From positions 1 through 64,000 of IMG/VR virus record IMGVR_UViG_3300008110_000023: 64,000 nt of DNA; one strand, given 5' to 3'. Below the pieces are notes generated by a model, which saw only the letters and a list, made by a program, of their open reading frames with translations, was not told the DNA's origin and made no database searches. The stretch comes from a virus. How positions within the stretch are numbered: position 1 is the first letter of the stretch; the number at the start of each line of letters is the position of its first letter. Below, one piece after another: positions 9,135 to 59,484 of the stretch. A program made the translations under genes and the position numbers.

Positions 9135-9944
9135 ATGCTTAATTCAAAATTAGTAAGTACTAAAGAACTTGTAGCAACTGTTTATAGAGACGGAGGATAT
9201 ACTACTGAAGTTAGTTATTCTGACTGTATAGAATGGACTGCAGAATGCTTAGATTTAATAGCAGCTCCACAAGGTTATGTAAGAAAAGTAACAGATGTAA
9301 ACAATCCTGTTATTATTGAAAATTATAGAGGTAAATTACCAGCTGATTTAGTACAAATAATACAAACAGCTAAGTTAGATAACTCTTATCCACAAACTAG
9401 TATGGTTGGTACTGTACTTGATTTTACACAAGGACATGTAATAAGTGCTCCTCAATATTCTATTGGTTGTAAAATTATACCAATGAGATATGCAACAGAT
9501 ACGTTTAATCTAGGATTACACTGCAATGACTGTATAGACACTCTTGTTGATTCTGATTATACCTATGAACTAAATAATGATTATATATTTGCCAACTTTA
9601 AAACAGGAAAAGTACTTTTTAGTTATTTGGGTTATCCAATAGACTGTGATGGTTTTCCTATGATACCTGATAATATTAAATTTAAACAAGCAGTAAAAGC
9701 TTATTTAATGGAAAGAATAGATTATAAACTATGGAGAAAAGGAGAAATCAATACCCAAGTATATAATAAATCAGAACAAGAAAGAATGTGGTATATTGGA
9801 GCAGCACAAACACAAGCACAAATACCAAGTATTGATCAAGCAGAAAGTTGGAAAAATAGAATGGTTAAATTGCTTCCTGAGTTTAATGCTCAAAGTAATT
9901 TCTTTAGAAGAGGTAGTAATCAAGAACAATTAAGAAATATATAA
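9135..9944 (+). CDS. Putative tail tubular / ring protein (P22 gp4-like position)
   Basis: 269 aa. N-terminal helices (VSTKELVATVYRDGGY, DCIEWTAECLDLI) lead to a beta core and a long C-terminal helical part (KFKQAVKAYLMERIDYKLW, then EQERMWYIGAAQTQAQIP). Helical N and C regions around a beta core and the place directly before the giant muzzle gene fit the tail tubular/head-completion-like proteins of podoviral crAss-like phages. Its last base overlaps the ATG of the 1352-aa protein (TAATG), so the two are coupled. Confidence 0.6.
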   Translation: MLNSKLVSTKELVATVYRDGGYTTEVSYSDCIEWTAECLDLIAAPQGYVRKVTDVNNPVIIENYRGKLPADLVQIIQTAKLDNSYPQTSMVGTVLDFTQGHVISAPQYSIGCKIIPMRYATDTFNLGLHCNDCIDTLVDSDYTYELNNDYIFANFKTGKVLFSYLGYPIDCDGFPMIPDNIKFKQAVKAYLMERIDYKLWRKGEINTQVYNKSEQERMWYIGAAQTQAQIPSIDQAESWKNRMVKLLPEFNAQSNFFRRGSNQEQLRNI

Positions 9945-12900
9945 TGGCTGAAGAGTTAATTCATGGTTTTACTGGTGGTTTAAACAAAGATTTAGCTACT
10001 AGTTTAGTACAAGCAGATAGTTATATAGATGCCAATAACATAAGGATTGTTACCCAAGAGGGACAATCCTCTGGCATTTTAATGAACATACTAGGAAATG
10101 CATTTAGTTTTAGTATTCCCAATGTAAAAGGAGGTTTTAGAACTACTTCTCCAGATGGTGAAGGTTATGGCAGATATGATCTTACTATTGGTACTACAGT
10201 AGTTTCTTTTGTTGTTGAGTATAATAATCCAATTAGACCTCAAATACAAAGTATATTAGAACCTTATATTACTTCTGGCCAAATATTTGTTTATGTAAAT
10301 GGATCTGAATTAATAATATTAGAAGGTACTAGTACAATAAATTTAACTTTATTTTCTGGAGTAGATATTGTTATATTTCCAGTAAGTCCTATTACTGATT
10401 TACAGATAATAGGATGGACAACTATAAGAGATACTATTGTTTTATTTACTTGCCCTGAAACAGCTAATGGTACTGGACAAATATGGACAGTAAATTACAA
10501 CAGTGTTACACAAACTACCACAGGCCCTGTATTAAAATATACACAAGCACTTAATTTTGATAGTAAACATCCTATACAAGCTATAGGCAGATATGAAACT
10601 ACAGATATACAAAGAGTATACTGGACTGATAATTATAATGCTCCTAGAAGTTTTAATATAACTGCTTTATATGCAGAAGATACTGATATAGACTTAATTA
10701 ATTTAAGTAGTTCTACTACTTTAAATATTCCTATTTTAGCTCAAATAACTACAGGAGGTAGTTTATTAGCAGGAAGTTACCAATATACTTATAGACTTAA
10801 AAAGACTAATGGTGCTTATTCTACTATAGCTCCTTTAAGTAACTTAGTTAATATAGTATCATCTGATGAGAATACTACTGCTTTTCAAAACTATGAAGGA
10901 AGTAGTATTAATACAGTTACTAGTAAATCAGTTACTTATAACATAAATAACTTAGATAACTCTTATAGTACTATTGAACATATCTTTTTATTTAAAGATA
11001 CTTTTAATACAATACCTAAAATATATATATTTAAAGAAGAAACTGCAGTAACAGGAAACATTGAAGTAGTGCATAGTAAAAATACAGATACTACTTTTAT
11101 TCCTCTTACTTTAGAAGAGTTACTAATATCATCACAAAATGAATTTTTAAAAGCAAAGACTATTGCTACTAAGGATAATATGTTATTCTTTGGTAATACT
11201 AAGTCTCAATCTTTTAAAGTAGATTATGACTCAAGAGCTTACAGGTTTGATAATACTAGAATAGCTAAGATAAAAGATAACTCTAGACAATTTACTCCTT
11301 ATGGAGATATTTATATTGATGGTACTGCTCCTGATTATACAGTAGTGCCAAAAGATCATGATGCTATAAATGTATTTAATGATTCTGATGCTATCTCAAC
11401 TGCATCTAAATATTATAAATATCAAGCAGATGGTGTAACTGTGGGAGGCCAAGGTGCTAATATTAAATACAGTTTTACATATATTGATGGTATAGTAGAT
11501 AATGATACTAATACTTTAAAAAGTGCGTCTCCTTTTTATACCAGTGATAGAACTGGAGATGTTAGTTATTATTTAGATGTACCTGGACAAACTTATCCAC
11601 AAAATAATTTCTTTAACAACATTAAATCTCCTTATTATTCTAGTATTTATACAGGATATGCAAGAGGAGAAATATATAGATTTGGTATTGTATTCTATGA
11701 TAAATCAGGAAGACAATCTTATGCTAATTGGATAGGAGATATTAGATTTCCAGAACATGGTGAAATTCCTATGGGAGGAGTACAAAGTCCTTTTGCTAAA
11801 TCATATGCATTACAATTAGGTATACAATTTGTTGTTACTATTCCAACAAGTCTTAGAAATACATGTTCTGGTTATAGTATTGTAAGAGTAGAAAGAAAAG
11901 AAGAAGATAAAACAAAATTAGGTACTGGTGTATTAGGAACAGTAGTAGAATCTAGAATAACTGATAATACTAATACATATTGGAATGCTACTAGGTATAC
12001 AGATTCTAATGATGAAACTTATCCTTTAGATAGAGTACACACTTTAGATGGCCCTGCATTTCATTTTAATACTTTTACTTATAAACCAAATGATTATTTA
12101 TATGTAATTGGACAAGGAGATACTACTAATATTGCTCTTTGGAAAGATTATGGTCAGTACCAATCTTATACAAAAGCATATAAAACTACAGCAAGTACTA
12201 TTTTAGCAGGTCCTTATAATATTAATAAATATGCACAAATACAACCTGCTGGTACTATAAGTGCTGATCCTAGTAATGGATTAAATAAAAAATATATTAA
12301 CATGGGAGACAGAGGAATAACAGATCCTTTGTTTAGTGGTCCTTACCATAATGATAATTATTCAGCAGCAGGTGGACTAACTTCTTTAGTAACTTTAGGA
12401 GGTTCTATTAGTACAAGTGACTCTTATGGTGGTAATGATTATAATCAAATGACTTTTGTTTCTTATAATAGAAATTTAAGTAATCAATATGGAGGTAATA
12501 CTTATAGTTCTAGAAGTGCTAATACTTATATAAACTGTAGTCATTTCTTTCCAATAAGTTCATCAAGTTCTTTAGGATATGATGTATTTACTGTTTTTGG
12601 TGGAGATACTTATGTAAACTACTATGATCATACTAAGTATGATAAAAACTATCCAGATCAAACAGGGTATGCATTAAATGATAGTGATGAAGTACCTAGA
12701 GAAAGAAGTAGATTTGCTAGAGTATATTTAGCAGAATCTCCTGTAAATACTGATTTAAGACAAGGAAATCATTTTAATAAAAATCAAGATAATACTCCTA
12801 CTTGGTTATACGGAGACTTTAAATATAATCAAGTATACTCTCAACAAAATAATACTAGAGTATATATACCAGAACCATTTATAGATACTACACAAGAAGA

Positions 12901-14002
12901 ATTTGATAGTAGAATATGGTATAGTAAAACTAAGATTAATGGAGAACAAACAGATAACTGGACTTTTATAGACGGTTATAAAGATATAGAGTCTGTATAT
13001 GGTCCTATTAATAGATTAGAAGTACTTAATGATAACTTATTTGCATTTCAAGATAGAGCATTAGCTAATATTTTAGTTAATCCATTAAGTGTTATACAAG
13101 ATAATAATGCATCTAACTTAGTATTAGGTAAAGCAACTGGTGTAATACAAAAACATATATACTTATCTACAGAGATAGGTTGTAAACATCAATGGTCTGT
13201 AGTTAAATCTGATCAAGGTATATACTGGTTTGATATACTAGGTAAAAGACTATGTAAATTAGAAGGCCCTCAAACATTAGAATTATCTGATGCAAAAGGA
13301 TTGTTTAGTTATTTCCAAGAGAATTTAAAAGGAGCTATTAACAATGTAACACATAATGACAATTATTTAGTAGGTGATAGTCCTACTTACCAGTATGGTA
13401 TTACTGCAGGTTATGATTATAGAAATAAAGAAGTAGTATTTACTTTTTTAGATAGTAATAAACAATTTACACTTGCTTTTAGTGAAGTATTAGGTAAGTT
13501 TACTAGTTTTTATAGTTTTAAACCAAACTTATATATTTATACTAAAGACAAGTTTATTAGTCCAGACCCTGACAATTTAAATCAATTATACTTACATAAT
13601 ATAGATAATACTTATGGTACATTCTATACTAATAACTATGATAGTGATTTTAGCGTAATAACTAATAAGTTTCCAGCTAATACTAAAGTATATGATAACT
13701 TAGAGTTGTTTAGTGAAGTTACTATTAATAATGTAGATCAAGGTTCTTCATTTAATAAAGTACAATGTAATACTAAATATCAAGACAGTGGTTTACTTAA
13801 TTTAACTCCTGGAGTATCTATTAAACGTAGAGAAAGAAGCTGGAGATTGTTTGTACCAAGAGATACAGGTACTACAGGATCTTCTTTCCAAGCTAGGTTA
13901 AGAGATAAGTATTTAACAACTAAATTAGTATTTACTAACACAGGAGATAAGAAGTTATTATTACACTGGTTAAAAGTATTGTTCAGAGCGTCAATATCTT
14001 AG
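9944..14002 (+). CDS. Tail muzzle / stabilisation protein
   Basis: 1352 aa. N terminus FTGGLNKDLATSLVQADSYI with DANNIRIVTQEGQ is the pattern used to recognise crAss-like and other Bacteroidota-phage tail stabilisation proteins. The rest is Asn/Tyr/Thr-rich, beta-dominated and repetitive, consistent with the large beta-propeller-like muzzle that closes the crAss tail. The C terminus (VSIKRRERSWRLFVPRD, then LRDKYLTTKLVFTN) is basic. It ends in TAG at 14000-14002 just before a new promoter. No enzymatic motif was noticed. Structural role is inferred from homology of the N terminus and gene order. Confidence 0.75.
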   Translation: MAEELIHGFTGGLNKDLATSLVQADSYIDANNIRIVTQEGQSSGILMNILGNAFSFSIPNVKGGFRTTSPDGEGYGRYDLTIGTTVVSFVVEYNNPIRPQIQSILEPYITSGQIFVYVNGSELIILEGTSTINLTLFSGVDIVIFPVSPITDLQIIGWTTIRDTIVLFTCPETANGTGQIWTVNYNSVTQTTTGPVLKYTQALNFDSKHPIQAIGRYETTDIQRVYWTDNYNAPRSFNITALYAEDTDIDLINLSSSTTLNIPILAQITTGGSLLAGSYQYTYRLKKTNGAYSTIAPLSNLVNIVSSDENTTAFQNYEGSSINTVTSKSVTYNINNLDNSYSTIEHIFLFKDTFNTIPKIYIFKEETAVTGNIEVVHSKNTDTTFIPLTLEELLISSQNEFLKAKTIATKDNMLFFGNTKSQSFKVDYDSRAYRFDNTRIAKIKDNSRQFTPYGDIYIDGTAPDYTVVPKDHDAINVFNDSDAISTASKYYKYQADGVTVGGQGANIKYSFTYIDGIVDNDTNTLKSASPFYTSDRTGDVSYYLDVPGQTYPQNNFFNNIKSPYYSSIYTGYARGEIYRFGIVFYDKSGRQSYANWIGDIRFPEHGEIPMGGVQSPFAKSYALQLGIQFVVTIPTSLRNTCSGYSIVRVERKEEDKTKLGTGVLGTVVESRITDNTNTYWNATRYTDSNDETYPLDRVHTLDGPAFHFNTFTYKPNDYLYVIGQGDTTNIALWKDYGQYQSYTKAYKTTASTILAGPYNINKYAQIQPAGTISADPSNGLNKKYINMGDRGITDPLFSGPYHNDNYSAAGGLTSLVTLGGSISTSDSYGGNDYNQMTFVSYNRNLSNQYGGNTYSSRSANTYINCSHFFPISSSSSLGYDVFTVFGGDTYVNYYDHTKYDKNYPDQTGYALNDSDEVPRERSRFARVYLAESPVNTDLRQGNHFNKNQDNTPTWLYGDFKYNQVYSQQNNTRVYIPEPFIDTTQEEFDSRIWYSKTKINGEQTDNWTFIDGYKDIESVYGPINRLEVLNDNLFAFQDRALANILVNPLSVIQDNNASNLVLGKATGVIQKHIYLSTEIGCKHQWSVVKSDQGIYWFDILGKRLCKLEGPQTLELSDAKGLFSYFQENLKGAINNVTHNDNYLVGDSPTYQYGITAGYDYRNKEVVFTFLDSNKQFTLAFSEVLGKFTSFYSFKPNLYIYTKDKFISPDPDNLNQLYLHNIDNTYGTFYTNNYDSDFSVITNKFPANTKVYDNLELFSEVTINNVDQGSSFNKVQCNTKYQDSGLLNLTPGVSIKRRERSWRLFVPRDTGTTGSSFQARLRDKYLTTKLVFTNTGDKKLLLHWLKVLFRASIS

Positions 14003-14042: not shown

Positions 14043-16940
14043 ATGGCAAAGAAATACCAAAAAGATATAAAAGTAGTATTACCTAAATCAGATCCATTTA
14101 GAGACATTGCTGTCTATGGAGCTGGTGAAGAAATGATTAAAGCACTAGGAGGACAATTAGCTGATAAAGGTAAACAACCTGATATAGTACCTACTAAAAA
14201 TAACCCACATTTTATGAAAAAATCAAATAAAAAAGGACAAAGTCCTAGAAGTATATTATCCCCAGAACAAAAAATGGCTATGGAATTTGGGTGGGGAGGA
14301 GCACTTGGTAGTGTATTAGGTGCTGCAGCTGGTTCTTTTATCCCAGTTGTTGGTACTGGTTTAGGTGCTAGTATTGGAGGTGCTTTAGGTAGTGCTGTAG
14401 AAGGTACTATAGAAAACAAAAAAGCAAATCAAAATATAAATCCACAATATCCACAACAACAAATGGCACCTTTACCACAAATGCAATTTGCTAAAGGAGG
14501 TATGTTAAATAAAAGAGGTATTCCACATAGAGGTACTTCAGAACAAATGCCTTATCAAACACAAATGCAATCTTATCCAGATTTAGAATTTGGTAATGGA
14601 GAACAAATGCTTGCTGCTGGAGGAATGATTAAAAGAGCTGATGGTAGTTATTCTCAAAGAGGTCTTTGGGATAATATCCGTGATAACAAAGGTTCTGGTA
14701 AAAAACCAACTAAAGAAATGCTTGAACAAGAAGCTAAAATAAAAGCTGAATATGCTAATGGAGGTAAACTACCTAAAGAAATATTAAAAGCTAGAGTAGA
14801 AGCACATATGTCCCCAGAAAAAGCAGATTCTTATATAGAACAATATGCTAAAGGTGGAATACATATTAAACCTTCTAAGAGAGGTACTTTTACTGCAGCT
14901 GCTACTAAACATGGTAAATCAGTACAAGCATTTGCTAGTCAAGTATTAGCTAATAAAGAAAACTATTCTCCTGCAATGGTTAAGAAAGCTAACTTTGCAC
15001 GTAATGCTGCTAAGTGGAAACATGTTGATGGTGGTTTCTTACAAGAACCTGCAGAAGGAGTTATAGAAAGAAGAAATAAAAATAGAAGTAGAGAACCTCA
15101 AGAGTATGCTACTTTTGAAGAAAACTTTAAACATATGTATGCACAAGGTGGACGTATGGGAGCAATGGGACCTATGGATGTAGGTAATATATACTATGCA
15201 GATGGTGGTAGATTAATACCAGATGTAAGAGTACTAGGTAAATATAAAAATCAAACATCTGAAAAAGATGGTAAAACAAAAGAATTTACTGAAGATTTTG
15301 GAAGACAAATGGGATCACAAGATAATACTTATAACTACCAAAGAGAAGGTACTGATAAACCTTATTTAGGTTATTTTTCTTATAATGACGTTGATGGAAA
15401 AGGAGAGCAACTTCAAACTGGACGTGAGACTTATATTCATAAAGTAGATCCATTTGTATCTAGATACTTAAGAACTAAAATAGACTCACAAACTAATAAT
15501 TTAAATAACCCAATGAATTATGCTAATGGTGGTATTAATGTTTTAGGTAAAACTAAAAGTAATATAATTAATGACAATCAAAGTTTTGAAAGTTATGGAA
15601 AAACTATTGGTAATAATAATGATACATACAGCTACAAAAGATTAAGTGATAATAAACCTGAATTAGATTACTTTTCAGGAAAATCAGGAGAAGAATTTCA
15701 AATAGATGGTGTTATCCATGATAAAGTAGATCCTTTTATGTCTAGATACTTAAAAACAAAAATTAATGCAGAGACTAATAATGTATATGCAAATGGTGGT
15801 ATGCTAAATGAGTACAATGGAGAAAAACATGAAAATGGTGGTATTCCAATGGGGCCAAATGCAGAAGTAGAAGGTGGAGAAACTAGTATGAAAATGGGTA
15901 TGGGTGGAGAACAAGATTCTACTTATATTTATTCAGATAGATTAAAAGTTCCAGGAAAAAACCATACATTTGCAGAAGCTTCTAAAAGAATAGATAACAA
16001 ATACAATAGAAGAACTAATGATAAGTTATCTAATGAATCTAAAAGAAGAGAACTTAACAAGTTAATGGAAAGTCAAGAACAAGAAAGAGCAGGATTAGTT
16101 AATAGTGCTTATGAAACTATTGCAGCTTATGGAGGTCCTATACATAGATATACTGATGGTGGAATAAGAAAACCAGGAGATAATTGGAATAACCCACCAA
16201 TAGATAATTCAGGAATAGAAACTGGAAGACTTGCAGAGGAAATGTGGGCAGCAGGAAGAAACCCAAGAGCAATGCGTTCTTTGCCATTAGAAGATAATAG
16301 TTATAAAAGTCCTGATAAATTAGCAAATATACCAGCATATGATTTTAATGAACAACCTAAAGGTTTTAATTTAGGTACAGGAGAACAATGGGCTACAGGA
16401 TTAGGTTATGGCTTACAAGGCGCTAGTTTATTAGCTAGACAATTACAGTTAAGTAAAGCTAAACTACCTAATATTACTCCTTATACTATGCAAAGACAAG
16501 TATTAAATGCAGAACCTCAATTAAGAGAAGCAGATATACAAGGTGGTATTACTAGAAGAAATATAAGAGACTTAGGTGCTAGTACTTCTTCTGGAGGAGC
16601 AATGCAAGGTTACTTAGCTTCACAAGCTGCTACTACTAGAAGTAAAGCAGATATTATGTCTGATTTACAAAATAGACAAGCTATGGCAGACATGAATATA
16701 GATCAATTTAATGCTGCTGCAAGAGAAAGAGCTGCAGGTTATGAAGCACAAAGAAGAGCTGCACAACAAACTGAACAAGCACAATTATTTGCTGATTTAG
16801 GTAATTTAGGGGCTGGTATTACTAGGGATTATTTAACTGGTCAAACACAAGAAGGAATATTAGGCACTATGGAAACTTCTGATTACGGTTATAAAAAAGT
16901 AAAAGGAAGAAATAGAGCTACAAAATATTATAAATCATAA
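14043..16940 (+). CDS. Virion cargo protein with Gly-Gly repeat motifs
   Basis: 965 aa. Residues about 85-120 form a Gly/Ala-rich hydrophobic stretch (GALGSVLGAAAGSFIPVVG) that could insert in a membrane. Around 275-330 is KPSKRGTFTAAATKHGKSVQ, a basic segment recurrent in Bacteroidota phage virion proteins. At least ten Gly-Gly motifs of the form A-x-GG or x-DGG recur. Residues about 390-585 contain two tandem ~100-residue repeats (VDPFVSRYLRTKID, then VDPFMSRYLKTKIN). The C terminus is helical and Gln/Ala-rich. Position between muzzle and RNA polymerase matches the ejected cargo proteins of crAss-like virions. The function inside the host is unknown. Confidence 0.65.
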   Translation: MAKKYQKDIKVVLPKSDPFRDIAVYGAGEEMIKALGGQLADKGKQPDIVPTKNNPHFMKKSNKKGQSPRSILSPEQKMAMEFGWGGALGSVLGAAAGSFIPVVGTGLGASIGGALGSAVEGTIENKKANQNINPQYPQQQMAPLPQMQFAKGGMLNKRGIPHRGTSEQMPYQTQMQSYPDLEFGNGEQMLAAGGMIKRADGSYSQRGLWDNIRDNKGSGKKPTKEMLEQEAKIKAEYANGGKLPKEILKARVEAHMSPEKADSYIEQYAKGGIHIKPSKRGTFTAAATKHGKSVQAFASQVLANKENYSPAMVKKANFARNAAKWKHVDGGFLQEPAEGVIERRNKNRSREPQEYATFEENFKHMYAQGGRMGAMGPMDVGNIYYADGGRLIPDVRVLGKYKNQTSEKDGKTKEFTEDFGRQMGSQDNTYNYQREGTDKPYLGYFSYNDVDGKGEQLQTGRETYIHKVDPFVSRYLRTKIDSQTNNLNNPMNYANGGINVLGKTKSNIINDNQSFESYGKTIGNNNDTYSYKRLSDNKPELDYFSGKSGEEFQIDGVIHDKVDPFMSRYLKTKINAETNNVYANGGMLNEYNGEKHENGGIPMGPNAEVEGGETSMKMGMGGEQDSTYIYSDRLKVPGKNHTFAEASKRIDNKYNRRTNDKLSNESKRRELNKLMESQEQERAGLVNSAYETIAAYGGPIHRYTDGGIRKPGDNWNNPPIDNSGIETGRLAEEMWAAGRNPRAMRSLPLEDNSYKSPDKLANIPAYDFNEQPKGFNLGTGEQWATGLGYGLQGASLLARQLQLSKAKLPNITPYTMQRQVLNAEPQLREADIQGGITRRNIRDLGASTSSGGAMQGYLASQAATTRSKADIMSDLQNRQAMADMNIDQFNAAARERAAGYEAQRRAAQQTEQAQLFADLGNLGAGITRDYLTGQTQEGILGTMETSDYGYKKVKGRNRATKYYKS

Positions 16941-18791: not shown

Positions 18792-21700
18792 ATGCCAGAA
18801 AAAAAGTTTAATTTAGAAGATAGTTCTTTACAATCTGCTTTTGCTATTCAACAAACTCAAGGTACTCCAATAGAGGCAGAACAAACACAAATATTACCTG
18901 GAGAAGGAGTTGATTTAGAACAAGGTTATTTACCAATACAAACAGATTTTTTAGGAGAACAATATAGAAATATTAATATCTATAAAGGAAAACAACAATC
19001 TTGGGCATCACAAGCAGCTAATGCAGTAGGAAGAGTGGCATTAAATACTATTCCTACTGTAATAGGAAATACTGCTAGTATTTTAGATTTTGAAGATTAT
19101 TTAAATCAAGATAAAGAAGTTGGTAACTCTATTACCAATGCAATGGAAGAATTAAAAGCTTCTGTTAATAAAACATTGCCTATATATAGAACTTCTGATG
19201 AACATTTAGATTTAGGAGACAGTGGTTGGTGGTTTGAAAATGGATCTAGTTTAGCAGAATCTATAGGAGCTTTTGCAATAACAGGTGCAGGTTTAGGAAG
19301 TACTATGTCTTGGTTAACTAGTCTTGCTAAAGTAGGTAAAGCTGGACAAGCCGCTGCAACTGGTTTAACTGCTTTAGGATTAAACCAAGCAGAAGCTATT
19401 ACTACTGCAGGTCAAGTATACAAAGATACTTATGATTTTCATTTAGCTAAAGGATTAAATGAGGATGAAGCACAACAAAAAGCTGCAGATGCTGCTTCTT
19501 ATTCTATTAACTTAAATAGAGCAAATATAGCACTTAACTTAACTAGTGCTAATATGTTTGTAAGAGCTCCTAAATTAACTAGACAAATAATTAAAAATAC
19601 TTCTAAAGCTAATACTTTAAGACAAGGTGGTTTAGAAGCATTACAAGAAATTGGTGAAGAAGAAATAAACTTAGTTGCTGAGAAAGCAGGTAAAGCAAAA
19701 GGTGAAGGAAGAGACTATAGTATATCTCAAGCAATTGATAATGTATTAAGTGCAGAAGGTGTAGAAACTGGTTTACTTGGAGCACTTGGTGGTTTTGGAC
19801 AAACAGTTGGTACTGCTGCTATTAATCAATTAACTGGCAAAACAAAAGAACAACAAGAAAGATTTAAAACACAACAAGATGCTATTAAAGAAATAGAAAC
19901 TATTAGCAAAGCTAATAAAGTAAATGATGCTGCTAGTACCTTTAAAACAGCAAATGAATTAGGAAAATTATACAAACAAATACAAATAATAGATAATATT
20001 GAAAATCCTTCTAAAGAACTATTAGCAGAAAGAAAAAAACTAACAGATTCTATATTAGAAGTACAATCTTATAATGCTTTTAACAATGGTGTTACTGATA
20101 ATTTAGTAGATGAATATACTAAAATAAAAAGTATGCCAAAAGAAGAAGCTATTAAAAAAGGATTATATGATGGTAAAATGGATTTAAGTAATCCAGACCA
20201 TTATATTAATAAAGCTAATAAAGCTATTGAAAAAATAAATGAATTAGAAAATATTTATATAAAATCACAAAAGTATATAAATTCACAACAAGTTTATTTT
20301 AACAGAGCTGATGATATTGCTTTAAAAGAAAATAGAACCCAAAGACTTGCTATTTTAAATAATAATAAATTAAAAGCAGAGGCTGATATTTTAGGTAAAA
20401 TACAATCAGGACAAATAAGTCTTAGTAAAGGAGACAACACTGTATTTTATAATTTAGATAATTTAGATGAAAATCCTTTTACTACTCCAGCAGAAAAACA
20501 ATTGTATGAAGAAGTAAAAGAAAAAATAAGACAAATACCTTCTGTACAAGAATTTGAAGAAAGTAAAAAAGACTATGATTTTATAGAAGCAGAAATTAAC
20601 AAGAATGATAATGCCTATACAAAAGCAACTTCTGAAGAAACACAAAAGAAAGCAAAACAAGCATCAGAAGAGACTTTAAATGCTGTTAAAAAAGCACAAG
20701 AAGAAGCTGTTAAAAAAGAAGCAAAAGCAAAAGCTGATGCAGAAAGAGCAACAGAACAAGAAAGAATTAAACAAGAACAACTTAAAAAACAACAAACTGC
20801 TGCAGATGCCAAAGTAGCTGCAGAAGAAAAAGCAAAACAAGAAGCAGAAGCCAAGAAAAATGCAGAAGAAACTACTAAGGTAGAAACTCCTCCTACTTCT
20901 GTACAAAAACCTGTTGTAACTCCAACAACTACAGAACCTACATTAAGTGCAACACATCCTTTTGTTGTAGAAGGTTATTTAGATGCTATTATAGAAGACA
21001 GTAAAGGAAAAGATAAAAAATACTTTATTCAATCATTATCAGCGCTTAATTCAGCAGCTGAAGAAAACTTAGAAGGAGATGAGTTAATTGAATGGAATAA
21101 CTATTATAATAGTATTACATCAGGAACTACTACTGAAGAAACAACTACTCCAAGTTCAGAAGATACTGCAACAAAAACTTTAAAAGATAACTTTAAAGCT
21201 GCTTTTGAAGAGTTTGATATTAATGTACAACAACAAACTCCTAAAGTTGAAAGAACTGATGATGAAAAATTAAGTGATAGAATACAAGCAGTTCTTGATT
21301 TACTTAAAGCTACTAAATTAAATACAGCTACAGTTACTTTAGGACAAATAGTAGAAGAAGTAAACAAATTATTTGATAATGATATTGAGTATACTAAAAA
21401 GATATTCAATGACTTAAAGGATATTGTAACTTTACTACAAAAAATGAGAAATAATCCTGAGTATACTTTAACTCCTAATTATACTTTATCTGATGCTGGT
21501 ATTGTTGAAACAGGTATTACAATAGAACCTACTATACTCTCTGAAAAAACAAGTAGAGAAGCTAACGTAGAATTAATGTCTAGAGTAAGAGAAAATGATC
21601 CTACTCTTAACTTTATTATAGACGGTAAAAAAATTGAAAGTATAGCATCTGTAGCCTCTAAAGCAATATCAGATGAAGGTACTGAAGTAGATGAAACCTT

Positions 21701-24700
21701 AGGAGTTTTTAGAACTATTTATAATGAAGCTGGTGAATTAATATTTAATCCAAACCAGGACGCTATAGTAGATTCTAATTTTATTACTGAAGGAACTGTT
21801 ATTACTATTAAAGTAGAAAAAGCTACAGGTAATATAGAAGAAGATGTTGATACTGCTGAAATAGCAATGTATGTTACTACTCCAGAAGGAGAAAGAAAAA
21901 TAGGATATATACATTTACCTAGTTATGCAGGTGTACAAACATTAGCACAAGGAGAGTTATTACCATCTATACAAGAACAACTTACACTTATACAACAACT
22001 TAGAAGACAAGTATTAGAAAACCAAGATTCTATTCTTACAACTACTGTAACTAAAAGAGGTTTTGGTAATGTAAATAAAAAAGGAAAAGATGCTAATGGT
22101 AATATACCAACATCTATCTTAAGTAATGCTTTTGCTGGTGACACAAGAGTACATTTAGGTGTAGTAGGGCTTGTTGGTGAAAACAAGAAGATAAATAGAA
22201 ATGATGAAAGTATTCCTTTATATCAAGCAACTGATTTAAAAGCAGGGGCATTAGTTATACTTTTACCACATCCAAGTGGAACTGTAGTACCTTACTATGC
22301 AATAAGCAATCCAATAGGAGCAGATACTGGAGTTACTACTAAAGTAGTAAATACTTTAAAAGACTTCTTAGCACGTAAAATAGATAGAAAACAAACTACT
22401 ATGGCTATTGAAAGATATGTCTATACAGTTCCTGAAGGTAACATAGGCCGTAAAGGTATTGTTATAAAAGAACAAGATGGACAAAGATCTATTATAGTAG
22501 ATGGTAAAGAAGTTAAAAATGATAAGAACTTTGCAGAGGTTATAGGTAGTGTATACTTTAACATGAATAAAAGTATCTTAAACTCTAAAGATGGACCTGC
22601 TTATGAGAAAGAGATAATGAATTCTAACTTAGTGCGTACAGATGTACAAGCTAATCCTGTAACTTATACTAATGAAAGTGGTGAACAAGTAACTGAGAAC
22701 TCTTATTTCCATCAAGTAACTACAGAGTTTAGTACTAACTTAAATAAAAGTGCTAAACCAAAAGTACAAACAGAAAGTACTGTATCTGATATAGAAAGAA
22801 GAAGACAAGGATTAAAAACTATAAACGGCACTTTAAGAGTTGATTTAGGTGGATTTAGTATAGATAATGTATCTAAAGAATTTTATGACAATATACTTCA
22901 TGCCACAGCAGATCCTTTTTATATAAATTTAAAAAAATGGATTAATGAATTTAGAAAAACACAAAAACCATTTGCTGTTATAGATAGTTCTGAAATTATT
23001 AATAAATATAATGCAGAATTAGTTGCATTAGAAGGTAAACCAGAAGAAACTGGTACTACTACTAAAGAAGAAGCAGAAAGACTTAAAGCTATAGAAGATG
23101 CTAAAGCATTTGGTTTTGAAGTAGATGATGAATTAGAAGCAGATATTCCTACTATATTTGATACTCAGAATGATTTATCTGCAGAGCAAATAAGTATGAT
23201 GAAGAATAATCCTACTACTCTATTAGTACATCCTGAGTTAAATGCAAGTACACAAAATGAAGCTGTATTAAGTATAGCTTATAAAGCATTAACTATAGAA
23301 CCAGAGACTGAAGAAGTAGAAGGAAAAGAAGTATTAAAATCTACTAATAAAGAACTAGTTAAAGCTAACTTTATAGAAGGAGCAAGAGTACTTAACAACC
23401 TAGCAAAAACTAATCCTACTAATGCTACTTATGCTAAAGCAGCTAAGACTATGTCTATAGTAGCAGGAGATGAAGTATTTGAAAAACTCTATGCAAAAGC
23501 AACTGAATTTATTAAAGAGATAGGATTCTCTACTGAAGAAAGTGGTTTCTATAACCAAATGGAAGCTTTAGATGAAGTAGATGGAGAAGAAGAAAAGATA
23601 AATCAATTTATAGATGAAGCAGCTTCCTATGAAGATAGAAAGACTGGTGCATCTAAAAGATTTAAAAAATTCTTAGCTTTTATTCCAGCAATGGAACTAA
23701 TAAAAGGAAAAGCAAAGGTATCTAGAAACTCTTTATTAATGCCTACTTTTAATAACTATGATAGTACTTTTACTATGATAGCTAATATACTTAGTGAGTA
23801 TAACTACCCTAGTACTGCAGATGGTTTACAAATGATGATAAACAGACTGACTGCTACAGATATAAAGAATCCAGTTATAAAAGAAGTTGCTGCTAAGTTA
23901 GAAAAAGCCCCTCAAAAGATTAAAGTAGAGTTCTTTAACATCTTTAATCAACAACATGCTAAGTTTAAAACATTAAGACTATACTGGCAAAAAGCTAGAA
24001 CTTTTAAATATTTCCACCAAGGAATAGGAGGAGAAGTAAAAACTAAATACGCTGAAAGATTAAAACCTACTTTAATTAACTCTGATAGAAATAAAGCACA
24101 AGAATTAGTAAGAGAAGAAATGCTTACTAATTTTAAACAAAAAGGAGTTATTTTAAAAGCTGTTACTAATAAACTAGATAGAAAAACTAATAATACTACT
24201 TTAGAAGTTAACACTGAACACAATAAAGCTATTTATGATGCATTTGTTACTGCACTAAAAGATGATAGTAACTACCAAGTAGATAGTAGAGGTAAAGTAA
24301 ATACATTATTTTTTACTGAGACTGGTTTTAAAACTATGTATGACTTACTTAGTAATACAGGTATTAGTATTTCAGAAAATGCATTTGAAGACTTTTTAAA
24401 TAATCATATAACACAAGATGGTACAAGAGGTCATAAAGCTATTGCAGGTGAAGTTTTAGGAGTTATCCTAAAAAGTCTTGCTGGAGAAGGTACAGTTATT
24501 GATAGTGAAACTGTAGAAAATCCTTTTGAACTTAATAATCCTTTTTATACAGAAGGAAGTAGTATTAATATCTTAGCTAAGTATGAATACAATACAAGAA
24601 CAGATGTATTTAGTTCTTCATTTAGACATGCTGGTAAAAGTTTCTATACTTTTGTAAGACATACTCCTTTATCTGAATTAGTACTAAAGCTTAAAAATCC

Positions 24701-27700
24701 TTGGAGAGCTAATAAAAAAGAAAACAGTTTTATTAGAGGACTTATAACTAGAGATCCATTGTCTAAACATAGTCTGTGGTTAAACAAAATGGTTAATCCT
24801 ACTAAAAAAGGAGATTCTGTTTTTGCAGATACATTTAATTTGTTCTATGAAAAAGGATATAGAGATAGTTCTGAAAAAGGATCTACTCCAAAAGACCTTA
24901 AGGATTCTATTGAAAAAGAACATGAATTAAACAAAATAATTTCTTTCCAAGCACAAGGAAAAGACACTGTTGTATTCCATGCAGATACCCACTCAGATAA
25001 AACTACTAAAGCTTTTATACAAGCTATTAAACAATCTGTTGATGGTTATACAGGAAATATAGAAGAAGGTATTCAATTATCTGATGATAGTTTAACTGAT
25101 TTATATAGTTATTTCTTAGCAGAATATGATAGGATATTACAAGTAAATGAACAAAATGAAGATCCTAATTTTCCTGCACATAAGAAATTAAAAGGATATC
25201 ACGGTACTAAAGCAAAACCAGGTTTAGGAAGTGTATTTAATATGTACCATTTCTTAAACTATGCTGTATTAAAAGACACTAATGCAGATTTAGCAACAAT
25301 GTTATTTGACTCTGAAGGTAATTTAAGAAATATACCTAAAGAAGATATGGCAGTAGTCTCTGGAATGGTTAAAGAAGAAATTAACAATAACTTTAATAGA
25401 CTATTTAAAAAAGTAAAAGAAGACTGGAGTACTTTAGGTATATTCTTTACAGAAACTAACAAATTAGGGTATACTAGATTGAATATTAACTCCTACATGG
25501 ATGCTAAATATTATGATAAAGTAGTAAACACACTTGGTATAGAAAATAAAGCTGTTAAGAAAGTAACAGAGAATTTTAATCAACCAGCAATAGATGCAGA
25601 AGTAGCAAAAATACTTGACTATGCTATAGTTGATTATGTAGTTAACTACGCTATAGCTACTAATGAAATGCTTATTATAACAGGAGACCCTGCATTACAT
25701 GGTAAACCTTCTAAAGATAAAGGTAGTATTAGTAGTAAAAATTGGGTATTAAAGTCTATTGCAGATACATTTATTAACGTAGGTAAACGTAATGCAAGAT
25801 TACTGGCTTCTGGTAACAAAGGTATGTTTAGTAAACAAAAGTATAATGTTGCTTTTGTAAATGACATTGAAGAAGTTTCTGAACATGTAAGTGATTATGT
25901 ATCATGGTTAAAAGAATTTGAACCTGATTATATTAAAAAGAAATTTACTTCTAATATGACAGATGCCCAAGAGTTAACTACTGTTGAAGAGCATTTAGAA
26001 GTTATGCGTGCTTTTGGTAAAATAACTGATAATCAATTTAAAACATTACTAGGTTTATATGATCCAGCTGCTTACAGAGATTTATACAAAGAAGAAGCTC
26101 CTGCATATACACAAAAGGAAGTATTAGAGAATTTAAAAACTGTAATGCAACCTATGAAACCTGTACAAGTACAAAGTGTATTGGACACTGATATTAAAGC
26201 TAATGTACAGTATTATATTAAAACATCTTCATTCCCTATTATTCCTGCTTTAGTAAAAGGAAAACCTATGGAGTCTGTATTAAAACAAATGAAAGAAGCT
26301 AAAGTAGATAGACTTTCATTTGTATCTGCAGTTAAATTAGGAGAACATGGAGCTAAAAACTTATTTATAGAAGATAAACTTAATACAGAGTTATTTAAAG
26401 ACAATGTAATTGAATTAGATAGAGATGGTTTTAGTATACAGTTAGAAGTACCTTACAAAGAAAACAAAAAAGAAGTAAGAGAAGGTACCCAAAATATGAA
26501 ACTATTGTTTATGGATTTACCTGATTCTTTAGAATTAGAATTATCTGAAGGAAACAAAACAGTAGAAGAAGCTAAAAGAGAATATAATAGAATTCATAAA
26601 GAAATCATAGATAGCGCTTTAACTAAGTTATTAGGAGACATAGGAGCAACTGTTACTGAAGATGAAGCAGGATTTAAATCTTATAAAATAAATGATTTTA
26701 CTAATTTAAGTAAGATACTTAAAGAAGAAGGAGAATCTAGAGGATATTCAATTAACTCATTACTTGGTCTTGATTTAAATAAAGATGGTCAGTTTAAAAT
26801 ACCATTGACTTTTAACCCAAACTCTGCACAAATAGAACCTGTTATTACTGCATTATTAAGTAATAGATTAGTTAAACTTAAAATGCCAGGTAAATCCTAT
26901 GTATTAGGATCTGAAGTTTTAACCTTAGAACCTTCAATAAATAAAGAAGGAAAACAGACTCAAGCAGATATTAATGTTATTAAAGATATTATATGGGTAT
27001 CTGATAAATATAAAACACAAGGTAAACTTAAATACTACAGAGAAGAAAACGGTAAACCAGCAATGGCACAAATTATCATGCCTGCTTATTTCTTAGATAA
27101 AGAAGGAAAGCAAATAGACATGACTAAGTTTGTAAAAAATGGTTTTTTAGATACTAGTAAAATAGATAAAGAACTATTACAAATAATGGGCTTTAGGATT
27201 CCTACACAAGGACATAACTCCATGATGATGTTTGAAGTAGTAGGATTCTTACCTAAAACTAGTGGTGATTTAGTTATAGTTCCTGCAGAAATTGCTGCTC
27301 AAATGGGATCTGACTATGACGTAGATAAATTATATACTTATCATTATAACTATTATGTAGGTTCAAAATCTGGTAAACTAAAAAAATACAGTAAACCAGG
27401 AAATATTAAAACAAAACAAAATAGATTGCTTGAAATTCAATCAGCTATTATAATGAATAAAGAAGTAGCGCCTTATATTATGAATCCATTATCTATGGAT
27501 GATTTAGCAGACGCTATTGTAGAATTAAATAAAGATAAAAAAGAAGAATGGATAGGTAACTATTCTACTTTATACCAAAGAAATACTTACTTTGATAATG
27601 CTGCTGGTAAAATTGGTGTAGGTATATCTGCAAATGCTAATACTAATCACGCTGCTTTTCAACAGGCAGGTGTTTATGTTAAAGGAGGAGGCGTTGTATT

Positions 27701-30700
27701 CTTAAAACCTGACGGTACTCCATATAGTGATATTGAAAATAATGCTTATGAAAGTAATAGTGTTAGTAAATATAAAGAAGATAAATATACTTATCCTGAT
27801 CCTTTTAGTGATGATATAATAGACAATAAAAAAGATAACAATACTGCTTGGAGATTAGATAAAATATTTACTTTTGATGGTAAACGTATTTCTGATATTA
27901 TATCTCAATGGCTAGGAGCTTCTGTGGATAATGCCAAAGAAAAACTACTAGGAGAAGGAGGTATTAATAAGTATAACTTTAATGTGTCTTTGTTAATAGC
28001 TAGAACTGGATTTGGTAATAATTGGATTATACCTTTTATCAACCAACCTATCTTAAAAGAATATTATGCTATACTACAAAAACTAGAGGATAGTACTGAA
28101 AAGTCTTTTGAGGCAGGTAAAAAAGAAAAAGCAATAGAACAATTATTTAAAAAGTATACAGATTTATATAAAGTTGCAAATCCTAATGAAACTCCTGGAA
28201 TACAAGGAGTAACATTACTTGAATTAAAAAGTTCTCTGAATAAGGAAATAAATGCAGATAATGCAGCAGCACAGTTAAATATATTAAAAGCTTTCTTACA
28301 TTATGAAACTATTAGCTTAGAAGTAGGTACTGTACAAAAAGCATTAAATACTGATGTTAAGGGATTACCTAAAAATATAGCAGAAACTGCAGAAAAAAGA
28401 GATTTTATTAGTGAGCATGGGTATAACTCTTCTGTATTAGGAAATGTAGGTAAAATAAGAGAAAAAGTAATATCAGGTGCTTTTATGGAAATACCTAGAA
28501 TTGCTAGTCAATTATTTAATAGAAAAACAGACGGTTCTTATGTATATGCTTATGATAGTTCTGCCTACAAATGGGTTAAAACAGGATTAGCACAAATAGC
28601 TAATAAAGAATTTAATACTGAACAAATTAATTTAATACATAATAGTTTACAACAGTTTATTTATACTCACCCAGAATTAGGTTTATATGGGGATAATTAT
28701 GAGGCAGAAAAACAAAGGTTATTATACAATGAAAACCTAGCTGATAGATTATTGCAATTACAAGAGAAATACCCAAAAAACTATTTCTTAAGTAAAATAA
28801 GTGCTGTAATTGATACTAATGTTAATAATCCTAAAAAGATTAAGATAATAAATACTACTGCAGAACAAAAGATCTTTATAGAGAGAATGCAACAAGAATG
28901 GGAATCTGCTTTTTATGCAGAACCAGAACTTGCCAGATTTGCAGAAGATATGGCTAAGTACACAATGATGTTTAATGCTAATCAATTTGGAGCTTCTAAC
29001 TTAATAAAATACTTACCTTTTAACTATCTTAACATTATAGGTGCAGGTAAAGTATTAAATGGTTTAGAATTAGAAGATTCTTTAAGTCTTATAAACTTTA
29101 TACCACAATTCTTACAGCACAATCCAGAGTTTGCTCCTTTTGCTAAAGAAAGTAATTTCCTTGAAAATAGCGCAGTTTATAAAAAAGATGCTGATGGTAA
29201 AGATACTGATATTATAGAAGGATTTAAATTACCTAGTTTAGCTTTAGAATTTGATAAAAATGATGCACGTAATTTAATACAAATTATTAAAGTAGAAGGA
29301 GAAGAAATACCTGTATATCCAAGTTTCTTATCTGTATATGGAGGAGCTGAATTAGGAAGATTACTTTTTATAAAAGTAAATGAAGATTTTTATAGAAGAG
29401 TAGACACATTAGGAAATACTGATTTTACTGAATATAACTTTAGTAAAAATGGTTTAGCTTCTACAATACTAGAAGAGCAAAAAGGTGTTGTAGATATTAA
29501 CAAAAAAACAAATACTATAGAATCTACTACAACTGATTTAGATCAACTTTATTTTACAACTTCAAGTGTTCATTCTTTACTAGAAAATATTGTTATTAGA
29601 AATACTTTTGCTACAGATCCTTTAGCAGAAGCTTATGGTGCCTTAGCAGAAAAACTACTAGAACAACCAGAAAATGGATATAGAGTAGTAGTTGATAATA
29701 GTATACCAGCAGTAGGAGCTCATAATAGAGTAGAAAAATTAATTAAACTAAATAAAGAAGCTTTATTAAAAAATAATGAATTAGAAATACAACGTGTTAT
29801 ATTACATGAACTTATACACAAAGAAACTGTAGCTAAATTAGTAGATAATAAATTCTTAGAAACAAAAGAAGGTCAAGCTATTACTAAAGTATTTAATAGT
29901 TTTAAAGAACAACTACAAAATAAAGCATTATCTGATACTGAAAAAACTAGGGGTATTCCAAATGAATTCCTAGAAGCAGAAGTATTTAAGTTATTAACTG
30001 AGGCTAGTTTTGGAGAAAATAAAAAAGATTTAAATATACTATCTTTAAATAGAATTACTAATAGTGATATAAATAGTCCTGCTTTTAAAGAACTTATGAA
30101 GTCTTTATCTACTAATCTTGCTAAAGTAGATAAATTTAAAGCTAGTAGTAAATTAGAACCAGGTACTGAAAGATATGAAGCAGTTGCTAATTATATTAAA
30201 GATACTTTTACAGCAAATAATATTAAGGAATTAAAACCTAAATATTACATGTACACTAGTATTTTAGAGTTTGCTACTGAAGCTTTAACTAATACAAAGA
30301 CTCAAGAGTATTTAAAAACATTTACTACTATTAATCAAAAAGGAGAAAAAGTAAGTTTATGGAAACAGTTTATAGATGCTTTAACTACTTTACTTAAGTT
30401 TAATAATGTAAATAGAACATTAGCAGAAGATGCTATTGAAAGTATTATAGATGTAATTGATTATGGTAAACCAGCTGAGATAATTACTCCACCATCTATT
30501 AGTGTTAAAACTTTTGATAAAAAAAATCTATTTAAAGTAACACCTATACAAACTGCTGACAAAAAAGCAACTATCAAAGCCAGTATAGCTACTCAATATA
30601 TTGGTTTTGGTGAAGGCATTGCAGGAAGTTCTACAGAACTATATAGACAACAAGCTGGAGCTTTAGCTAATACAGGTAACTATTCTGTTAATGATGTAAT

Positions 30701-46548: not shown

Positions 46549-47694
46549 TTAGTTTAATTGAATTTTATAACCAGGAAGACTTTCATTTATAGGTGAAACT
46601 GTACTGTGTACCCAAAGCATTTTACCTCTAGGTTGTATACTACAATTACATTCACCATCTGTTAAATAAATAAGACTGCAATACTTGCCATAGTTATCAT
46701 TATAATACTCTATAACAGGATCAAATTCAGTCCCACCTCTTCCTTTTATTTCTATTTGAGGATTTCCCTTGTATTCCTCTACCCCACGTATTTTGGCATC
46801 ACATTGAATGATTGTAACTTTTGTATCTGTTTTATAAATATGATGAATTTCATTCATAAATTCACTTAATTCACCATCACTTACAGATCCACTAGTATCT
46901 ATTGCTACTAAGATATGCCGTTTACTTTTAATCTTTAGCGCAGGATTGCCTGGATATCTCCTAGAATCTTTTTTACGTGTTTTGATAGTATATATCTTAT
47001 TACTACCACCTGCAAATCTTCTAAGATAACTTCTCCAATTAAACTTAGCTGGTTCTGGATTTAATAGTCTATCTAAAAATCCTTTTAATTCTCCTGGTAC
47101 ATTACCTTTGTTTTTAACAGCTTCATAAGTAGCTTTCATTTGATATTCTACTTGTCTATCTATTAATTGTCTTTCTGCATCACTTAATTTACTAAACTGG
47201 TCCCAAGTTGCATGTTCTTTTGCAAACTCTGGATCTGCTAGCATATTCTTAAGTGTTTCACTCTTGTCTTTATCCTTCAATAATTTCTTATAGTAATAAT
47301 CTGTATCCTTTAAAGGCTCTAGAACTATTTCAGGAAAACTTTGTATATGCAAAAAGTCAGAGGTTTTATACTTAGGATCTATTAACTGATTGATTGCAAT
47401 ATCTGCAGCTATATTAAACAATAGTTTATCACTATACTTATCTCTCAATGTTAAATGAAAGAAACATATATGCAATAACTCATGCTTAAGAACTCCATAC
47501 TTTGTATTCTCAGTTAAACCTTCCCAAAATGTAGGATTAACTACTAATTCTGTATTAATACCTTGCTTTCCTACTCCAGCAGTTGGTACTCTAGGATCTA
47601 CTTTTTTATTTAAGGTGCTCATAAATACACCATAAAAAGGCTCATTAATCATTAATGCCCTACTTATCTTGCTTACGCTCTGTAATACATCCAT
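46549..47694 (-). CDS. Metallopeptidase-like / VWA domain protein
   Basis: 381 aa. Residues 71-75 are HELLH in VLKHELLHICFFHL, a zinc-type HExxH helix, followed by NIAADIAINQLI, the pattern of DUF2201-type metallopeptidase-like domains. The C-terminal ~120 residues are a von Willebrand factor A fold with the MIDAS motif DTSGSVS and YLTDGEC. The linker (about 170-250) is helical and basic. In bacteria such proteins pair with MoxR ATPases, as here. The start overlaps the 89-aa gene by about 35 bases. Catalytic activity is not guaranteed, as some members only bind metal. Confidence 0.82.
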   Translation of the reverse strand: MDVLQSVSKISRALMINEPFYGVFMSTLNKKVDPRVPTAGVGKQGINTELVVNPTFWEGLTENTKYGVLKHELLHICFFHLTLRDKYSDKLLFNIAADIAINQLIDPKYKTSDFLHIQSFPEIVLEPLKDTDYYYKKLLKDKDKSETLKNMLADPEFAKEHATWDQFSKLSDAERQLIDRQVEYQMKATYEAVKNKGNVPGELKGFLDRLLNPEPAKFNWRSYLRRFAGGSNKIYTIKTRKKDSRRYPGNPALKIKSKRHILVAIDTSGSVSDGELSEFMNEIHHIYKTDTKVTIIQCDAKIRGVEEYKGNPQIEIKGRGGTEFDPVIEYYNDNYGKYCSLIYLTDGECNCSIQPRGKMLWVHSTVSPINESLPGYKIQLN

Positions 47695-58574: not shown

Positions 58575-59432
58575 TTAAAAAATGTATCTTATTGTATTCC
58601 ATGGAATGATTTCATCATGCAATTTAGTAAAAGAATTAATAAAATCATTCTTTAAATTGTATTTATATCTTATATTCTTACCACCATACTGAGATATTTT
58701 AGCCTCTTGTATTGTAGGAACCCATAGATATTCTTGTTCTCCTGGAATATTATTGTCTAAATTATACTTGTGTTTATTTTCATTGTGAGTTAAGAATATA
58801 ACTTCTGCTTTTACCACATCTTTATAATCTACATAATCATTAACCATTTGAAATAGATATTTATAGTCTTTTAACCAGTCTCCATAAACTAATACTGGAC
58901 TGAAATTAATATGTACATCATATCCTGCATCTATAAATGCATCAATAGCTTTTATCCTATCTATTATCTTAGATGTATTAGGCTCTAATTTATCAGATAC
59001 ATTCTGTGGCATTAGACTAAATCTTATTCTTATTTTACCTTCAGGATCATAGTTTATTAGATTTACATTAACATATTTAGTTGCAAAACTACCCATAGCT
59101 ATAGGATGTTGTTTAAAGAAATCAAATATCTTTTCCCACTGATGGTATTTAGCATGAAGTGCAAAGTCTTCATTACAAGATATATCATAAGTAATATATT
59201 CTTTATGTGTCTGATTTGGTTTATCTACATGAGTAAAGAATACATGGTTATTAATTGCAGTTAAGATATCTCCTGTATTAACAGCAATATCTAAACCTTC
59301 TGGTTTATGTCTTTTCATATAACAATAACCACAATTATATAAACAGCCATGACCAAAACTAGGACTAATAAAGTCTGTAGATCTTCCACTTGGTCTAATG
59401 ACCATTGATTTTCTATTTACTTTTTCTATCAT
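58575..59432 (-). CDS. Radical SAM protein of the spore-photoproduct-lyase family
   Basis: 285 aa from the ATG at 59432, which follows the typical leader AAAACACATT. An in-frame ATG at 59483 would add 17 atypical residues. GHGCLYNCGYCYMKRHKPEG gives the C-x3-C-x2-C cluster (Cys 30, 34, 37) for a 4Fe-4S centre. YITYDISCNEDFALHA and YDVHINFSPVLVYGDW follow, as in SPL-type enzymes. The family uses S-adenosylmethionine to generate a radical. The founding member reverses thymine-dimer photoproducts; whether this member repairs DNA or modifies something else is unknown. Confidence 0.78.
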   Translation of the reverse strand: MIEKVNRKSMVIRPSGRSTDFISPSFGHGCLYNCGYCYMKRHKPEGLDIAVNTGDILTAINNHVFFTHVDKPNQTHKEYITYDISCNEDFALHAKYHQWEKIFDFFKQHPIAMGSFATKYVNVNLINYDPEGKIRIRFSLMPQNVSDKLEPNTSKIIDRIKAIDAFIDAGYDVHINFSPVLVYGDWLKDYKYLFQMVNDYVDYKDVVKAEVIFLTHNENKHKYNLDNNIPGEQEYLWVPTIQEAKISQYGGKNIRYKYNLKNDFINSFTKLHDEIIPWNTIRYIF

Positions 59433-59484
59433 AATGTGTTTTAAAAGTATCAAAAATGCATGTTTTTGTACATTATATGACAAG

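Follow-up and report, generated by a model that had tools for sequence, protein, structure and literature searches.

Gly-Gly motifs at the module joints of a divergent crassvirus cargo protein are more likely hinges than cutting sites

The phage phicrAss001 belongs to the most abundant phages of the gut. Its cargo protein C1 (gp45), believed to be the first to exit the virion, is resolved in the maps at two stretches only, with 12 copies of residues 425-552 at the portal and 12 copies of residues 214-245 in the tail barrel; according to the main text of the structural study, the 179 residues between these stretches could span ~420 Å (Bayfield et al. 2023, PMC10172136). Here we describe a relative of this protein that is punctuated by recurrent Gly-Gly motifs, and we weigh what these motifs may do. 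The protein is known from sequence alone, being encoded in an IMG/VR virus record of 85,026 bases of metagenomic origin, the first 64,000 nucleotides of which (the window) were analysed.

Crassviruses are phages of gut-type bacteria, and the ORF at 14043-16940 encodes a divergent member of their C1 cargo proteins. A preliminary description had already called it a cargo protein, and this label is borne out by a match to PF25725 (crAss_CARG1) over aa 581-683 that exceeds the Pfam cut-off (29.6 bits, or 28.7 in a second search, against 27) together with the gene order, in which the muzzle gene (9944-14002) lies directly upstream of the C1 start at 14043. Ring proteins 1 and 2 (PF24228, PF25702) are encoded near C1, and the crassvirus major capsid protein (PF23898, E 8.2e-120) lies beyond the window in the same neighbourhood. 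The Pfam scans covered 34 of the window's 42 ORFs that reach 100 aa, and five of the 24 ORFs of locus L028. A phmmer search of the PDB gave no match to the window C1, and a search for related loci returned none with this protein alone and four with the muzzle protein alone. The N-terminal part, where a C1 protein would have a membrane-type segment, gives a weak glycine-zipper match (PF13488, E 0.0029, below the cut-off). Elsewhere in the window, a 4765-aa protein (18792-33089) contains HELIH at aa 3672, where SprT is matched weakly (E 0.031), and carries a RecD-like helicase region at its C-terminal end, and 58575-59483 encodes a Spore photoproduct lyase family protein (PF20903, E 7.1e-24) in what is a phage. 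The features of C1 and its upstream neighbour are as follows.

9944..14002, + strand: muzzle protein gene, upstream neighbour of C1 (PF25731 E 2.5e-176, PF25729 E 1.1e-12)
14043..16940, + strand: C1 cargo protein gene (ORF, 965 aa; PF25725 crAss_CARG1 match; adjoins the muzzle gene)
14295..14399, + strand: glycine-zipper-like stretch, aa 85-119, with GG 85 and 112 (PF13488 E 0.0029, below cut-off)
14487..14501, + strand: FAKGG, aa 149-153 (motif count)
14751..14765, + strand: YANGG, aa 237-241 (motif count)
14844..14858, + strand: YAKGG, aa 268-272, joint before the basic module (motif count; homologue flank counts)
14859..15026, + strand: basic module, aa 273-328 (74-row alignment A4; HMM aa 268-327 E 1.4e-36; predicted three helices)
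15021..15035, + strand: HVDGG, aa 327-331, joint after the basic module (G330 and G331 invariant in the 11-row alignment A1)
15138..15152, + strand: YAQGG, aa 366-370 (motif count)
15195..15209, + strand: YADGG, aa 385-389 (motif count)
15207..15533, + strand: internal repeat copy 1, aa 389-497, YANGG at its end (self-alignment score 183.5)
15531..15800, + strand: internal repeat copy 2, aa 497-586, YANGG at its end (self-alignment)
15783..16109, + strand: portal-binding domain, aa 581-689, containing HENGG at 15828-15842 (PF25725 aa 581-683; HMM from alignment A3 aa 585-689 E 2.4e-26)
16122..16163, + strand: AAYGG, aa 694-698, and YTDGG, aa 703-707, joint after the portal domain (G697 and G698 invariant in A1)
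16260..16937, + strand: C-terminal region, aa 740-965, common to other C1 proteins (T837, R839, N872, G920 and G923 conserved in A1)

All of the motifs that had been named from the sequence are present (FAKGG at aa 149-153; YANGG from 237, 493 and 582; YAKGG from 268; YAQGG from 366; YADGG from 385; HENGG from 596), and their recurrence is real, lying far above what is seen in 20,000 shuffles of the protein. Thus [FYH][AEDT]xGG occurs nine times (shuffled mean 0.26, maximum 4) and YAxGG six times (mean 0.05, maximum 2), and the narrow motif [FYH][AEDT]xGG was found once in the 36 other ORFs counted. The surplus is one of the aromatic-x-x-GG form, the plain GG count being mildly high (19 against a mean of 11.8, p 0.017). 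The original estimate of at least ten motifs holds for the broader pattern [FYWHILVM]xxGG, which occurs 13 times (mean 3.0, maximum 11), and falls short for the narrow one. Their placing between different segments also holds, though not for every GG: by our reading, about 11 of the 19 GG in the window C1 lie between segments (152, 193, 240, 271, 330, 369, 388, 496, 585, 697 and 706), whereas GG 85 and 112 fall within the weakly matched glycine-zipper-like stretch and GG 599, 611 and 621 inside the portal-binding domain. GG 599 is that of HENGG (aa 596-600), whose HE aligns with an HE invariant in eight sequences of the portal-binding domain; being inside this domain, HENGG is not a linker.

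The motif extends to C1-type proteins at large. From 111 candidates, picked by an HMM of the basic module or of the portal domain, 18 redundant ones were dropped to give 93 ORFs at 92 loci; 13 of the 93 run off the end of their locus, and all were called with table 11 from the first ATG, so that C1 genes with an in-frame TAG are cut. The motif [FYHM]AxGG is found 216 times in the 80,743 aa of these ORFs and 15 times in the 180,704 aa of 317 other ORFs at the same loci, a density 32 times higher, and the looser [FYHM]xxGG occurs 504 times where 87 are expected (200 shuffles of each protein), with a significant excess (p 0.01 or less) in 59 of the 93 and none in the other 34. Residue preferences surround the 1055 isolated GG sites: 173 have Y at P5, 107 have F there and 90 have M, while Ala stands at P4 of 346 sites and L, I, M or V at P2' of 513. 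The number of motifs rises weakly with length (Spearman 0.27 over the 80 complete ORFs, range 1-17). In the literature searched, which included few subscription papers, no description of the motif was found. In-frame stop codons occur in annotated C1 genes at five loci (L009, L011, L022, L026 and L027); stop-codon reassignment is known in crass-like phages, and the stops fit it. C1 also appears split into two adjacent genes in phi14:2 and cr273 (L008:11804-14962; L011:12317-14387).

Comparison of homologues, which the preliminary description had proposed as a check, places the motifs at the borders of shared segments and on the flanks of the portal domain and the basic module. Among 3641 ends of BLAST segments, which are not independent of one another, 673 lie within about six residues of the start of an [FYHM]xxGG, where circular shifts predict 273 (z 22.7). 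Thirteen of the 17 control dipeptides had ratios of 0.64-1.12; those enriched at borders were FA (1.30), NG (1.31), DG (1.52) and KW (2.48), the last of which sits near the end of the basic module. GG outside the motif is likewise enriched (1.33). For the portal domain, 59 hits were reduced to 49 scorable proteins by dropping six without the anchor pattern (the window C1 included) and four too near the N-terminus; all 49 carry GG 6-32 residues upstream (13.9 expected), with a weaker trend downstream (32 of 48 against 19.9). For the ~55-aa basic module, GG directly precedes 50 of 61 non-redundant fused copies (3.7 expected) and follows 64 of 68 (12.9 expected). We regard the GG as part of the joint and not of the module, because modules at a protein N-terminus lose the upstream GG (absent in nine of nine) and keep the downstream one (present in eight of nine), and because only four of 12 free-standing copies preceded by 10 aa or more have GG there (redundant contigs included in these counts).

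The modules between the joints vary in order and number. By HMM positions, the window order is reversed in cr108, whose portal domain (157-286) comes ahead of its basic module (300-356), and DAC15 has two basic modules in tandem; in a bajarodcaudo virus a match to a phage tail lysozyme (PF18013) lies between joints; and the window C1 carries two repeat units in tandem (aa 389-497 and aa 497-586), both running from a GG to a YANGG, with a score of 183.5 against a best of 33.5 in 300 shuffles. These comparisons show that the joints are the places where modules have been doubled, moved, gained or lost from one phage to another. The motif at module joints would thereby offer a parsing rule for the fast-diverging C1 proteins and indicate which of their modules are interchangeable, and it makes the hinge, docking and cleavage readings separately testable.

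The basic module is widespread, with 165 encoding stretches in IMG/VR, the best 80 of which were used here, and the scans run with Pfam and NCBIfam gave it (window 14859-15026) no name. A muzzle match was present in each of 26 contigs tested, which had been chosen among the 80 loci with a basic module (25 of the matches being above the cut-off), so that module and joints appear to be characteristic of crassviruses; they extend to an ORF of 2,342 aa. Free-standing copies near the portal gene (L016:1965-2192; L019:1941-2192) are annotated 'transcriptional regulator'. The module is possibly a DNA-binding fold; a more specific assignment as a ribbon-helix-helix DNA binder was set aside and is kept as a lead, since most of its 18 Foldseek matches are named as ribbon-helix-helix proteins and none is under E 1, and VIA-align returned a single row, VapB12 (Z 2.0, rmsd 3.6, 36 aligned).

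Structure prediction with AF2 puts the joints outside the cores with pLDDT of 90 or more. The basic module is predicted as three helices with a core over 90, and both flanking GG lie outside this core in ten-residue blocks averaging 47-71. Over aa 256-735 the mean is 54.6, the confident parts being the basic module and the portal domain; of the eight joint GG in this region, five are in segments below 50, and the other three belong to blocks with averages of 54-71. The low confidence of aa 375-587 is not evidence of disorder, because the alignment holds almost no relatives there, and the full-length alignment A5, which misplaced the portal domain, was left out of folding. The idea that [Y/F]AxGG marks a helix end was rejected: around 188 motifs helix propensity is lower on both sides (0.635 and 0.686, higher values being less helical) than at random positions (0.591 and 0.594), though predicted helices do end at aa 269 and 695, inside YAKGG and AAYGG.

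We consider it probable that C1 is a threaded, module-shuffling ejection protein in which the GG motifs serve as hinges between modules and are not needed as cut sites. According to this model, C1 consists of a glycine zipper, a basic module, a duplicated unit, a portal-binding domain and a C-terminal region, all of them small modules, and of short joints between them whose loose consensus is [Y/F/M]-A-x-G-G-x-[L/I/M/V]. By analogy with phicrAss001, the CARG1 domain would anchor the chain at the portal of the virion, with the N-terminal part reaching into the tail barrel. Thanks to the joints, one module after another could turn and unfold and move through the portal and the tail channel in succession, and the same joints are the seams for duplication, reordering, gain or loss of modules between phages. 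Several observations weigh against a hinge. The flank counts fit cleavage sites between modules equally; GG outside the motif and the dipeptides FA, NG, DG and KW are also enriched at borders, and 34 of the 93 proteins have no significant excess. Furthermore, a plain flexible linker needs no preferred aromatic at P5, Ala at P4 or hydrophobic residue at P2', so that something may read the joint sequence.

Because a plain hinge leaves these preferences unexplained, we keep open a docking role, in which the interior of the portal or of a tail ring would grip the aromatic-Ala-x-GG-x-hydrophobic peptide and so set the register of the threaded chain. The ring-bound helix 214-245 of gp45 is indeed flanked by AYGG (207-210) and FAEGG (260-264), but the published model of this stretch excludes both motifs, and the weak rise of motif number with length is unlike the prediction of a fixed register. 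Overall we judge docking unlikely.

The preliminary description had offered proteolytic sites or hinges; hinges, as inferred above, are the better supported and the more likely of the two, and cleavage is not supported. Papain-like enzymes that cut after GG (coronavirus PLpro, adenain, the ASFV protease and the C39 double-glycine peptidases) share x-GG specificity and a hydrophobic P4. The GG sites of C1 lack this hydrophobic preference: P4 is L, I, M or V in 146 of 1045 (14.0%), below the background of 18.7%, with Ala favoured instead, and in 3 of 19 in the window C1. Among 12 crassvirus records, our own included and some of them fragments, Peptidase_C1 (PF00112) and C39 (PF03412) were found in none, with positive controls detected, and Peptidase_C48 (PF02902) in none, its positive control being silent too. 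CHAP was also found in none of the 12, its control being detected; this search missed gp26 of phicrAss001, annotated as CHAP, which together with the fragmentary records limits the sensitivity of the protease search. Pfam scans of the 34 window ORFs showed no papain-like peptidase and one putative metallopeptidase (DUF2201_N, 46549-47694), and the window C1 has no HExxH.

The published structural data on gp45 point the same way. The protein has 842 aa, identical to the PDB sequence, and in our own numbering its portal-bound model starts at residue 425 with A-F-G-G-W, upstream of the bond in question; the residues on both sides of the putative cut are therefore modelled, which speaks against cleavage at the joint before the portal domain. 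The stretch modelled from 425 also holds GG 434 and 447, while FAEGG (260-264) and FAYGG (559-563) lie outside the modelled stretches. The peptides named by Bayfield et al. (79-101, 181-190, 275-300 and 307-320) do not decide on cleavage, because none spans a GG. The main text of that paper (PMC10172136) contains no words in cleav-, proteoly- or proteas-, and the main text of the 2018 phicrAss001 paper does not mention gp45.

Cleavage of C1 as a polyprotein behind its GG, whether inside the virion or once ejected, with release of modules such as basic protein, lysozymes or zincins, would nevertheless account for sites between modules, for the basic module also being a free-standing gene, and for C1 being split into two genes in phi14:2 and cr273. 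Zincin-like HExxH motifs occur in nine of the 93 C1-type ORFs (L008, L032, L039, L041, L042, L043, L048, L055 and L056; ten motifs against 0.66 expected), so that a peptidase can be on board, and these motifs may mark peptidases that the ejected protein carries as payload; both Peptidase_C1 and C39 are present in a Bacteroides genome that served as one of the controls. Against the P4 residues, the record searches and the gp45 model, we find such processing improbable. A version in which the injected C1 is a polyprotein that stays whole in the virion and is cut after [Y/F]AxGG joints during or after ejection is very doubtful; if true, a host periplasmic or co-injected protease would cut at these joints, and lysozyme, zincin and basic protein modules would be released into successive cell compartments. 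That the joints act at the DNA level, the linker DNA being a micro-homology seam for module recombination and the peptide a by-product, seems barely credible: in six of 12 proteins the linker copies resemble one another in DNA more closely than expected from codon usage (p 0.05 or less; mean z 1.48), and duplications are bounded by GG, but the effect is small, the window C1 gives p 0.069, and common descent of duplicated modules yields the same signal.

Set against known systems, C1 resembles the GG-cutting papain-like systems (PLpro, adenain, the ASFV protease and C39) in having x-GG between segments, and differs from them in its Ala at P4 and aromatic P5 and in that Peptidase_C1 and C39 were not found in the 12 records. 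Like T7 gp14 and related proteins and P22 gp7, gp16 and gp20, it would be a packed protein expelled before the DNA, a comparison drawn in the main text of Bayfield et al. (PMC10172136); unlike the T7 and P22 ejection proteins, C1 of phicrAss001 lies partly in the tail barrel, and the likeness drawn is one of mode of action. The closest described system is phicrAss001 gp45 itself (PDB 7qog, 7qoi, 7qoj, 7qol and 8ckb; PF25725), with which the window C1 shares the portal-binding domain, the basic module, the position of its gene after that of the muzzle and the GG-rich joints. The two are 23% identical in alignment A1, and the window C1 is set apart by a duplicated unit, not seen in gp45, and by more YAxGG joints.
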